From Larsenimonas suaedae (GTDB taxonomy: Bacteria; Pseudomonadota; Gammaproteobacteria; Pseudomonadales; Halomonadaceae): a stretch of DNA of 64,000 nucleotides. The notes beneath the pieces were generated by a model. That model saw nothing but the letters and a program-made list of their open reading frames with translations, did not search any database and was not told the origin of the DNA. The translations under genes were made by a program, and so were the position numbers. The stretch spans positions 682,001-746,000 of the forward strand of contig NZ_JAMLJI010000001.1 of assembly GCF_023712105.1 (NCBI RefSeq), read 5' to 3'. Below, piece after piece: positions 3,767 through 47,004 of this stretch. The first letter of the stretch is position 1. Each line of letters opens with the position of its first letter.

Positions 3767-3795
3767 TTGACGGGCTCGCAGCGCCTCAATAGGAT
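3767..3795 (+). promoter_or_regulatory. Sigma-70-like promoter of the riboswitch-controlled cob operon
   Basis: A -35 element TTGACG (3767-3772) and a -10 element TAGGAT (3790-3795) are separated by exactly 17 bases. The predicted start, near 3802, falls just before the first conserved base of the cobalamin riboswitch. The element lies upstream of cobT on the opposite strand. It is inferred from consensus and position only. Confidence 0.6.
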
Positions 3796-3804
3796 GGTCG
3801 CCAC

Positions 3805-3925
3805 GCACAGGTGCCCGGCCGCACGCCGGGATAATCGGGAAAGTGATGTGAGTTCACTGCTGTCCCCGCAACGGTAAGCCGCCCGCCTCGGTTCGAGACG
3901 GCTGCAAGCCCGGAGACCGGCCTGA
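3805..3925 (+). promoter_or_regulatory. Cobalamin (B12) riboswitch
   Basis: The plus strand carries the conserved elements in order: AGGTGCC (3809-3815), GGGATAATCGGGAAA (about 3828-3842), the B12 box CCGCAACGGTAAG (3866-3878) and AGCCCGGAGACCGGCC (3907-3922). Short stems between them close as expected for the class. No T-rich intrinsic terminator follows before the chelatase gene, so control is probably at translation initiation. It should repress the plus-strand cob operon when adenosylcobalamin is abundant. It lies between the divergent cobT and chelatase genes; no second copy faces cobT. Confidence 0.92.
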
Positions 3926-3978
3926 TGCGCTTTTGTTCACCTCTCTTGACGCGTACGGGCGATGCGCGGGAACGGACC

Positions 3979-4035
3979 ATGACACCACACGTTTTGATGA
4001 TCGCGGCGACCGCGCTTAACGGAGTTGCCCGATGA
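3979..4035 (+). CDS. Possible leader peptide overlapping the chelatase start
   Basis: An 18-codon frame (MTPHVLMIAATALNGVAR) runs from the ATG at 3979 to a TGA that overlaps the next gene's ATG as ATGA. The same frame is open back to an ATG at 3925, at the 3' edge of the riboswitch, giving 36 codons. GGAACGG sits a few bases before the 3979 ATG. I recognise no family. It may be a translated leader that couples riboswitch state to chelatase translation, or chance. The evidence is position and overlap only. Confidence 0.25.
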   Translation: MTPHVLMIAATALNGVAR

Positions 4036-44293: not shown

Positions 44294-44322
44294 TTGACAC
44301 GATGAGGCGAGCTATCTAAGAT
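44294..44322 (+). promoter_or_regulatory. Sigma-70 promoter of metNIQ
   Basis: A consensus -35 TTGACA (44294-44299) and a -10 TAAGAT (44317-44322) are spaced by 17 bases. The predicted start near 44329 lies about ten bases before the SAM-II-type aptamer. It overlaps the leader of the divergent ribE gene. Confidence 0.75.
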
Positions 44323-44337
44323 TGCGCTCCGTTTTTT

Positions 44338-44390
44338 CGCGCCGATTTGAACCCAGCTTGCGGGGCGCTTATAAATGCCGCTAAACGGGT
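44338..44390 (+). promoter_or_regulatory. SAM-II-type riboswitch upstream of metN
   Basis: The segment follows the SAM-II (metA motif) layout: P1 arms GCGCC (44339-44343) and GGCGC (44364-44368), the conserved GATTTGAA loop (44344-44351), CCC and CTTGC for the pseudoknot (44352-44361), then ATAAATG-CC-GCTAAA (44371-44385) and the closing GGG (44387-44389). CCC-GGG and parts of TTGC-GCTAA can form the P2 pseudoknot. A strong terminator follows 14 bases later. SAM binding should favour termination and shut off methionine uptake. The match comes from memory of the consensus, not a covariance search. Confidence 0.8.
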
Positions 44391-44403
44391 GTGTCCAGCG
44401 TTG

Positions 44404-44429
44404 AGCCACCCTTCGGGGTGGCTTTTTTT
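44404..44429 (+). terminator. Intrinsic terminator of the metN riboswitch
   Basis: AGCCACCC and GGGTGGCT close a stable TTCG tetraloop (44404-44423), followed by seven T. No gene on the plus strand ends nearby, so it is a regulatory terminator in the metN leader. Its 5' arm starts 14 bases after the aptamer. Confidence 0.9.
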
Positions 44430-44481
44430 ATGTCTGTAGTACACTTGCATCTCTCACATTGCCGACACCTTGCCAGGTACC

Positions 44482-45516
44482 ATGATTCAACTTGAGCAAC
44501 TCAGTAAATTCTACGGCTCGGATCACGATGCGATCTGCGCACTAAACAACGTTGACCTGACGGTCCCCAAGGGCAGCATCACAGGCGTCATCGGTGTCTC
44601 GGGGGCGGGGAAAAGTACGCTCATTCGCTGCGTCAACATGCTCGAGCGTCCAAGCAGCGGGCGGGTTCTGGTCGACGGCCAGGACCTTACTCAGCTCGAT
44701 GCACCAGCGCTTCGCAAAGCGCGCCACGACATCGGCATGATTTTCCAGCATTTCAATCTGCTCGATTCTCGCACGGTCTATCAGAATATCGCGTTTCCCC
44801 TGGAACTGATGGGCTTTGACAAGAACGCTATGAAAGAGCGTATTACGCCTCTTCTGGAACTGACGGGGCTCAGCGACAAGAAAGACCGCTACCCTTCTGC
44901 GCTTTCAGGCGGTCAGAAACAGCGCGTCGCCATTGCACGAGCCCTGGCCAGCCGACCGAAAGTTCTTCTGTGCGACGAGGCCACCTCCGCCCTCGACCCG
45001 CAGACCACCTCCTCCATCCTGGAACTGCTTCGTGAAATCAACCAGGAACTTGGCCTGACTATCCTTTTGATCACGCATGAAATGGAAGTGGTCAAATCAA
45101 TCTGTGACAGCGTGGCACTGATCAGCGGCGGCGAACTGGTCGAGACATCAAAAGTCGGGCCATTTTTTACCGCCCCGAGCACAAAGCTGGGCCGAGAGTT
45201 TCTGGAGGAATTCCTTCGCATCGACCCGCCAAAATCGCTGCTTGACCGGCTCTCCAGCGATGGAAGCGATAAACCCTATCCGGTGATACGTATCATTTTC
45301 AACGATGAGAATGTCGCATCACCACTGATCTCCCAGTTGGCGCGCTCGTTCGAACTGGACATCAGCATTCTTCAGGCCAAGATCGAGGACATCCAGGGGC
45401 ATACCCTCGGCCTGATGATCGCCGAATTTCGTGGCAACGCCGCACATATAGAGAAAGCGCTTGCCAGACTGTCCGATATGCAACTGTCCACGGAGGTTTT
45501 AGGGTATGTCGACTGA
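44482..45516 (+). CDS. metN: Methionine ABC transporter ATP-binding protein
   Basis: ATPase of the D/L-methionine importer. From the ATG at 44482 it has 344 residues, with Walker A GVSGAGKST near 38-46, the ABC signature LSGGQKQRVAIARAL near 139-153, Walker B VLLCDEATSALDP, and a C-terminal NIL regulatory domain (about 265-344) that senses methionine in this family. AGGT lies five bases before the start; an upstream TTG at 44470 is unlikely. It overlaps metI by 11 bases. Confidence 0.95.
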   Translation: MIQLEQLSKFYGSDHDAICALNNVDLTVPKGSITGVIGVSGAGKSTLIRCVNMLERPSSGRVLVDGQDLTQLDAPALRKARHDIGMIFQHFNLLDSRTVYQNIAFPLELMGFDKNAMKERITPLLELTGLSDKKDRYPSALSGGQKQRVAIARALASRPKVLLCDEATSALDPQTTSSILELLREINQELGLTILLITHEMEVVKSICDSVALISGGELVETSKVGPFFTAPSTKLGREFLEEFLRIDPPKSLLDRLSSDGSDKPYPVIRIIFNDENVASPLISQLARSFELDISILQAKIEDIQGHTLGLMIAEFRGNAAHIEKALARLSDMQLSTEVLGYVD

Positions 45517-46159
45517 CATGATGGCTCTTATCGGCCACGCCACATTGCAAACGCTTTACATGGTCTTGATCAGTGGCATTATTTCAGGTGTGCTGGGCCT
45601 GGCGCTCGGACTGGCACTTTACGTGACACGACCGGGTCAGATCCTTGCGTATCGCCCGGCGTTTCTGGTCACAAGCGCAGTAGTCAATATCGGGCGTTCG
45701 ATTCCCTTTATTATCCTGATGGTGGCCATCGTTCCCTTTACTCGCCTTGTCGTCGGCACCTCCATTGGCACCAATGCGGCCATGGTACCGCTGACGATCG
45801 CAGCGATCCCCTTCGTTGCCCGACTGATCGAAGGTGCATTGAACGAGATTTCGCCCGGACTGATCGAGGCGGCTCAGGCCATGGGGGCGACACCGAAGCA
45901 GATCGTAACCAAAGTACTGATCCCGGAAGCGCGAGGCGGCATCATTACGAGCATCACCATCACGATTGTTACACTCATAAGCTACTCGGCCATGGCCGGT
46001 GCCGTTGGCGGTGGCGGTCTGGGTGACGTCGGCATTCGCTACGGGTATAACAGGTTCGAGCCGTTGATCATGCTGGTGACGGTCGCCATCCTGGTAATCA
46101 TGGTTCAAGGCGTGCAGATGCTCGGCGACTCGATGGTCAAACGCGCCAACCACAAATAA
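45506..46159 (+). CDS. metI: Methionine ABC transporter permease
   Basis: Inner-membrane channel of the methionine importer. The 217-residue protein has five hydrophobic helices (about 15-40, 53-75, 85-105, 150-172 and 185-205). It carries the ABC coupling-helix EAA motif as GLIEAAQAMGATPKQIVTKVLIPEA. GGAGG and AGGG precede the start inside metN. Size and motif match MetI. Confidence 0.95.
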   Translation: MSTDMMALIGHATLQTLYMVLISGIISGVLGLALGLALYVTRPGQILAYRPAFLVTSAVVNIGRSIPFIILMVAIVPFTRLVVGTSIGTNAAMVPLTIAAIPFVARLIEGALNEISPGLIEAAQAMGATPKQIVTKVLIPEARGGIITSITITIVTLISYSAMAGAVGGGGLGDVGIRYGYNRFEPLIMLVTVAILVIMVQGVQMLGDSMVKRANHK

Positions 46160-46191: not shown

Positions 46192-47004
46192 ATGCATCTA
46201 CCTATTCGTTCACTGGCCCTGGCTGCCCTCACCCTCGGCTCGGTCGCATTGGCCGGCTGCGGCAACTCGGAAACCGATGACACCACGGTCAAGGTCGGCA
46301 CGATGTCGGGCCCTGAAACCACGGTCATGGAAACGGCCAAGAAAATCGCCAAGGATAAGTACGGGCTGGACGTTCAGATCGTTGAGTTTACTGATTACAA
46401 CTCCCCGAATGCGGCGCTTGCTGATGGCAGCCTCGACGCCAACGCGTATCAGCACAAACCGTATCTTGAAAGCATGGTCAACGATCGTGGCTACAAGTTT
46501 GCCACTGCAGGCGCAACATTTGTCTATCCGATCGGCGCCTATTCCAAGCGCTACGACAGTATCGACGATCTGCCGGAAGGTGCCACGATCGCTATTCCCA
46601 ACGATCCGTCCAATGAGGGCCGCTCCCTGATCCTGATGGATAAAAAGGGACTGATCACACTCAAGGACAATACCGATCTGAATGCCACGCCGATGGACAT
46701 TTCAGAGAACCCACATAACTTCAAGTTCAATGAGATCGACGCCGCTCAATTGCCACGCACGCTTCAGGACGTCGACCTTGCCTTTATCAACAATACCTAC
46801 GCCCAACCAGCCGGCTTGAGCCTGCAGGACGACGCGCTTATCAAGGAAGGTCCGGATTCACCCTACGTGAACCTGATCGTAGTGCGTGAAGGTGACCAGG
46901 ATAAAGAAAAGATCAAGCATCTGGTCGAGGCCTACCAGACAGACGAAGTCGCTGAAAAAGCGAAAGAGCTGTTCAAGGGCGCCGCCGTTCCCGGCTGGGA
47001 ATAA
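46192..47004 (+). CDS. metQ: Methionine-binding lipoprotein
   Basis: Periplasmic substrate-binding lipoprotein of the NlpA/MetQ family. The 270-residue protein has a lipoprotein signal ending VALAGC (Cys23), then VKVGTMSGPETTVMETAKKIAKDKYGLDVQIVEFTDY and NAYQHKPYLESM, family-typical segments. It lies 32 bases after metI. Relatives bind methionine and sometimes its oxidised or D forms. Confidence 0.95.
   Translation: MHLPIRSLALAALTLGSVALAGCGNSETDDTTVKVGTMSGPETTVMETAKKIAKDKYGLDVQIVEFTDYNSPNAALADGSLDANAYQHKPYLESMVNDRGYKFATAGATFVYPIGAYSKRYDSIDDLPEGATIAIPNDPSNEGRSLILMDKKGLITLKDNTDLNATPMDISENPHNFKFNEIDAAQLPRTLQDVDLAFINNTYAQPAGLSLQDDALIKEGPDSPYVNLIVVREGDQDKEKIKHLVEAYQTDEVAEKAKELFKGAAVPGWE

Follow-up and report, generated by a model that had tools for sequence, protein, structure and literature searches.

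The window analysed here, a stretch of 64,000 nucleotides from Larsenimonas suaedae, contains the methionine importer genes metN, metI and metQ. They are preceded at 44294-44429 by a sigma-70 promoter, a SAM-II aptamer and a terminator against which an antiterminator hairpin competes (Table 1). The promoter, P1 arms, motifs, closing GGG and terminator named in the original prediction all lie in the sequence where it had placed them. The importer genes were identified with NCBIfam and Pfam. The best NCBIfam match of MetN is the MetN equivalog, with 463 bits under a curated cut-off of 499.7. No MetJ was matched in the genome of the window in a search for which the E. coli control was positive.

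Table 1. Positions of the elements of the metN leader and of the genes that follow it.
Feature	Position	Strand	Basis or remark
Sigma-70-type promoter, TTGACA-17-TAAGAT	44294-44322	+	TTGACA 44294-44299, TAAGAT 44317-44322; about 15 bases 5' of the aptamer
SAM-II aptamer	44338-44391	+	R1 match 44336-44397; RF00521 match 44329-44404
P1 5' arm, GCGCC	44339-44343	+	Pairs with 44364-44368
GATTTG	44344-44349		Aptamer core motif
P2a pseudoknot 5' strand ACCC, loop L1	44351-44354	+	Own-versus-swapped pairing test
CTTGC	44357-44361		Aptamer motif
P1 3' arm, GGCGC	44364-44368	+	Sequence; compensatory pair-type variation in relatives
ATAAATG	44371-44377		Aptamer motif
GCUAAA, third strand/ligand side	44380-44385	+	Invariant across aligned relatives
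GGGU	44387-44390	+	Proposed P2a 3' strand (SAM bound) or antiterminator start (SAM absent)
Antiterminator hairpin, GGGUG/CACCC and inner pairs	44387-44411	+	-8.7 kcal/mol
Intrinsic terminator, GAGCCACCC-TTCG-GGGTGGCTT and T-run	44403-44429	+	Stem 44403-44424, T-run to 44429; about -17 kcal/mol
metN, methionine importer ATPase with NIL domain	44482-45516	+	TIGR02314, E 4e-139; PF09383
metI, permease	45506-46159	+	NF008049, 252 bits, above cut-off 212
metQ, substrate-binding lipoprotein	46192-47004	+	TIGR00363 above cut-off; PF03180

Assignment of the leader to SAM-II

The conserved SAM-II core motifs GAUUU(G), UUGC, AAAU and GCUAAA occur in the window in the correct order and with the correct spacing. 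ACCC and GGGU can form the H-type pseudoknot P2, and aptamer and terminator stand ahead of methionine genes. P1 has 5 pairs only, with an extra G on its 3' side. One promoter-like site is present in the leader region against 0.3 expected from shuffles, and one terminator against 0.4 expected by chance. The same TTGACR and -10 arrangement also precedes the metN leaders of other Halomonadaceae.

When a 251-bp stretch was scanned at relaxed thresholds, SAM_alpha (RF00521) was the top Rfam family (29.6 bits, E 4e-5), and the metN-leader element was its best match genome-wide (E 1.2e-4). A default Rfam scan misses the element because this score is lower than the gathering score of 36 bits, which is an operational cut-off and not a structural feature. 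We therefore rely also on a covariance model, R1, built from 17 relatives (15 Halomonadaceae genomes and the Legionella and Tistrella plasmid records), with the window and its genus left out of the training. R1 gives the element 60.8 bits (E 5.3e-15), the runner-up in the window reaching 10.4 bits. Genome-wide the element is the sole R1 match below E 0.9, hence a single copy. The other RF00521 matches in the genome (L002 with 21.5 bits and the weaker L003-L006) were attributed to chance, none being backed by R1; L002 and L003, when read, showed no core motifs and no recognisable methionine gene downstream. Folding of 44322-44432 alone, which is blind to the pseudoknot, gives an uninformative MFE z of -1.47. 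Three Halomonadaceae metN leaders do exceed the Rfam gathering score (L011, 47.8 bits; L014, 38.9 bits; L016, 36.9 bits), and L011 and L016 belong to other genera with the same GGGTG...GCCACCC platform.

The element resembles SAM_alpha in its core motifs, in P1 and pseudoknot P2, in the terminator behind them and in the methionine genes downstream. It differs in its score below the gathering threshold and its short P1, in its target, metNIQ being absent from the SAM_alpha list of Leyn 2014 (PMC4239095), and in the GGGUG/CACCC platform, which is particular to Halomonadaceae. Judged by its sequence, the metNIQ leader is very probably a genuine SAM-II riboswitch; its kind is known, and the design by terminator and antiterminator is clear. 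This agrees with the complete SAM-II-type switch controlling metNIQ that had been proposed.

Conservation in Halomonadaceae

R1 matches were found in 196 of the 250 Halomonadaceae genomes, covering 20 of 24 genera. The metN leaders collected from the family comprise 60 loci in 16 genera, and MetN is encoded downstream in all 60. Weak R1 matches (34-49 bits, some spanning P1 alone) fall among these loci. We considered them as possible false positives and rejected this, since MetN follows all of them and most carry an inserted hairpin. This insert, of 18-42 bases, separates P1 from the AAAU-GCUAAA strand in 48 of the 58 leaders that could be parsed, with 45 different sequences. All inserts fold better than the mean of their own shuffles (means of -15.2 versus -8.2 kcal/mol). 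The aptamer has the compact form in the window's own genus and in a small number of others. The insert-bearing leaders that were tested give no Rfam report even at E 0.5. Loci L226-L235 and L240-L279 are Halomonadaceae metN aptamers with the highly variable inserted hairpin.

Comparison with the relatives, which the original prediction had proposed as a check, also supports the pairings. In 6 of the 56 distinct Halomonadaceae leaders, the second pair of P1 is A-U in place of G-C, so that pairing is kept. The outer pair is CG, GC, AU, UA or GU over 140 relatives, and inner changes occur in the divergent ones. The inner P1 pairs vary little among close relatives, and for the named pattern set the pattern used in the search had dictated them. 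For P2a in fixed register, the same 140 relatives form a mean of 2.65 pairs with their own tail versus 2.23 with swapped tails (maximum 2.44); that 0 of 1000 swaps reach the own-tail pairing is to be read as support and not as a probability, because swapping leaves relatedness in place. In free register, which makes a weak test, 1 of 300 swaps reaches the own-tail value.

The presence of the leader on metN throughout the family indicates vertical inheritance within Halomonadaceae and not recent acquisition. The idea of lateral spread in the original prediction is therefore not upheld. A recent transfer of the switch together with metNIQ from alphaproteobacteria could be suspected from SAM-II elements that also precede metN in Tistrella (pTM4), Thalassospira and a Legionella plasmid record. 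We regard it as very unlikely, however, since the switch is on metN in most Halomonadaceae genera with a platform common to the family and unlike that of Tistrella and Legionella. Moreover, the MetN of the window is 46% identical to that of Tistrella and 57% to that of Legionella, versus 61-67% for other Halomonadaceae genera. An ancient transfer may have preceded the origin of Halomonadaceae.

Besides the metN leaders, SAM-II aptamers arranged in tandem, with a distance of about 110 bases, were observed at L012 (1508-1680) and at similar loci (L017-L038), mostly from one Halomonadaceae genus. A terminator lies between the aptamers, and the second aptamer looks translational, its CUCCCCU being complementary to the AGGGGA/GGAG preceding the start codon. 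Downstream are a short conserved ORF and a protein of 216 amino acids without Pfam or NCBIfam match; variants have AzlC (L019 and L024) or a MetK-like gene (L239). Tandem SAM-II is already known from 44 cases (PMC9481103), and the targets of the Halomonadaceae tandems look unusual.

Proposed switching mechanism

We read the metN leader as a SAM-II switch of the transcriptional OFF type, with a probability of about 0.93 for this reading as a whole. The match in sequence and structure, the conservation, the support for the pairings and the mutually exclusive helices are observed; binding of SAM and the sense in which it regulates are predicted. Polymerase would start at the promoter, and the aptamer would fold first. 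At high SAM, loop L1 and GCUAAA-C-GGGU would close the P2 pseudoknot (ACCC/GGGU). With GGGU held there and not free, the 5' arm AGCCACCC (44404-44411) would be available for the terminator, and metNIQ would stay untranscribed. At low SAM, GGGUG would pair with CACCC (44407-44411) in the antiterminator, the terminator would be blocked and the importer would be made. By sequestering GGGU from CACCC, the pseudoknot would thus couple SAM to termination and low import.

The antiterminator, GGGUG-U-GU-C-CA[GCGU]UG-A-GC-CACCC, belongs to the MFE fold that is computed for the leader as long as the 3' arm of the terminator is missing. Programs for RNA folding are unable to score the pseudoknot against this hairpin. 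Antiterminator and terminator are mutually exclusive, and both are conserved. The block GGGTGTGTCCAGCGTTGA-GCCACC (GGGTGTGTCCAGCGTTGAtgGCCACC) is retained in most Halomonadaceae leaders, and in L227 a double change from CA[GCGU]UG to UU[GCAU]AA preserves the inner antiterminator pairs. In other lineages, metZ and metK leaders often have GCUUUAGC in the 5' arm of the terminator, complementary to the GCUAAAGC of the aptamer. The same switching logic appears to be written there in other letters.

The aptamer could instead be derived from SAM-II but degenerate or changed in ligand (e.g. SAH or another adenosyl compound), so that SAM is not sensed. The sub-threshold Rfam score, the extra G near P1 and the single copy in the genome could be taken in this sense. 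Against it, the conserved core motifs are all intact, the whole leader is kept over 16 genera with MetN downstream, and the genes that the element precedes in relatives are consistent with feedback by SAM. As for SAH, its switches (RF01057) form a separate family that is found separately in relatives. We consider this alternative highly improbable. A SAM-V switch, or another pseudoknot class resembling SAM-II and acting on translation, shares its binding core with SAM-II in the case of SAM-V (PMC6061858), but this reading is scarcely credible, as SAM_alpha is the top match, the SAM-V model gives no match in the 251-bp stretch at E up to 10, and a terminator, lying about 50 bases 5' of the start codon, takes the place of ribosome-site sequestration. 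The covariance-model check suggested at the outset came out in favour of SAM-II. With this switch, the methionine importer of L. suaedae, which lacks MetJ, would have a direct SAM sensor.

Range of the element and relation to known families

A small number of SAM-II occurrences outside alphaproteobacteria was noted in 2005 (Corbino 2005, PMC1273637), and a paper of 2009 (PMC2704228) names alpha-, beta- and gammaproteobacteria as the groups in which SAM-II is commonest. Leyn 2014 (PMC4239095) reported SAM_alpha in Rhizobiales and Rhodobacterales only. Across 369 genomes drawn evenly from the GTDB Gammaproteobacteria, a class to which the betas belong, R1 at E 0.01 matches 186 genomes (137 of 272 genera), whereas RF00521 matches 136 at E 0.01 and only 30 above its cut-off. 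Default Rfam scanning under-calls beta/gamma SAM-II about sixfold in this sample. R1 was not trained on most of the matched lineages, because it consists of Halomonadaceae sequences and two outside ones only. Of these 369 genomes, 4 gave a match to MetJ, and the genome of the window gave none. For the class as sampled, the assumption that repression is usually left to proteins therefore does not hold. The surprise of SAM-II in a gammaproteobacterium dissolves, and lateral spread with it. The under-recorded range, the other suggestion made for the locus, is right for Rfam annotation, where the under-annotation is real and large, but as a statement on distribution it is not new, having been made in 2009.

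Among the best 30 of the 186 R1 genomes, the genes downstream are mostly metZ, then metK and metF. The matches listed by the named pattern scan come from alpha-, beta- and gammaproteobacteria, and the genes that follow them are metX, metZ, metH, aspartokinase, cysH-like genes and metN; gene names outside the window rest on reading of translations and clustering. The genes preceded by these other carriers, metZ, metK, metF, metX and metH, all belong to methionine/SAM metabolism.

Two orphan elements of betaproteobacteria can be placed in this context. Leyn 2014 (PMC4239095) described a "new" metXZ element, without ligand, ahead of metX or metZ in betas. Like SAM-II it has two crossing pairings (regions 1-4 and 2-6) and a terminator, and its genes follow the SAM-II pattern found here, with metX in most betas and metZ in Nitrosospira (L089) and Novimethylophilus (L078). 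From this comparison of gene pattern and described topology, we infer that metXZ is SAM-II. The second element, RF02424 (Bp2_Cand287_SIPHT, "Burkholderia sRNA"), matches the opposite strand of the elements of the window (44307-44426, minus strand), L145, L089 and L128, all matches found being below the RF02424 gathering score. The reverse complement of its consensus, GCGTCGATTTGA...CAGCTTGCGGACGC...AACAGCTAAA, contains the SAM-II core, and its authors place Bp2_Cand287 upstream of metX/metZ (PMC3521395). Rfam lists RF02424 as an sRNA encoded opposite to the SAM-II element. It would correspond to the SAM-II leader of metX/metZ and is likely a wrong-strand Rfam family. A likely ligand is thereby assigned to both elements. 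SAM-II long loops (RF01726), known from Bacteroidetes and marine sources (PMC2864571), and SAM-V have the core architecture of SAM-II; SAM-V is translational, unlike the element of the window, and RF01726 gives no match even to the Halomonadaceae members with inserted hairpin.

We lean, with moderate confidence, towards a wider view in which Gammaproteobacteria without MetJ, the betas among them, most commonly sense SAM through the beta/gamma form of SAM-II, mostly missed by Rfam's alphaproteobacterial model. This form would control metX, metZ, metK, metF, metH or metN according to lineage, metXZ and RF02424 would be the same RNA, and the variable hairpin within the aptamer would be an innovation of Halomonadaceae. 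Methionine regulation in MetJ-less gammaproteobacteria becomes directly testable by SAM-binding assays.

Several further loci deserve mention. SAM-II precedes metN in two alphaproteobacterial genera, at L081 and L085 (Thalassospira) and L008 (the Tistrella plasmid pTM4), as well as at L007, a plasmid record of Legionella adelaidensis; the expression platforms of these three genera differ from those of Halomonadaceae. On two Acidimicrobiia MAG contigs (L108 and L124), a MetH-like gene follows the element, with proteins about 90% identical in different isolates, and this reflects either transfer to Actinobacteriota or a binning error. At L048, L049, L051 and L058, metK is under SAM-II and an SAH riboswitch match lies 1.2-1.4 kb away on the SAM-II strand, so that SAM- and SAH-sensing switches stand close together. 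Finally, the window contains a cobalamin riboswitch at 3795-3939 (81 bits), shortly 5' of a frame starting near 4034 that was named a chelatase-like AAA ATPase from reading of its translation only.
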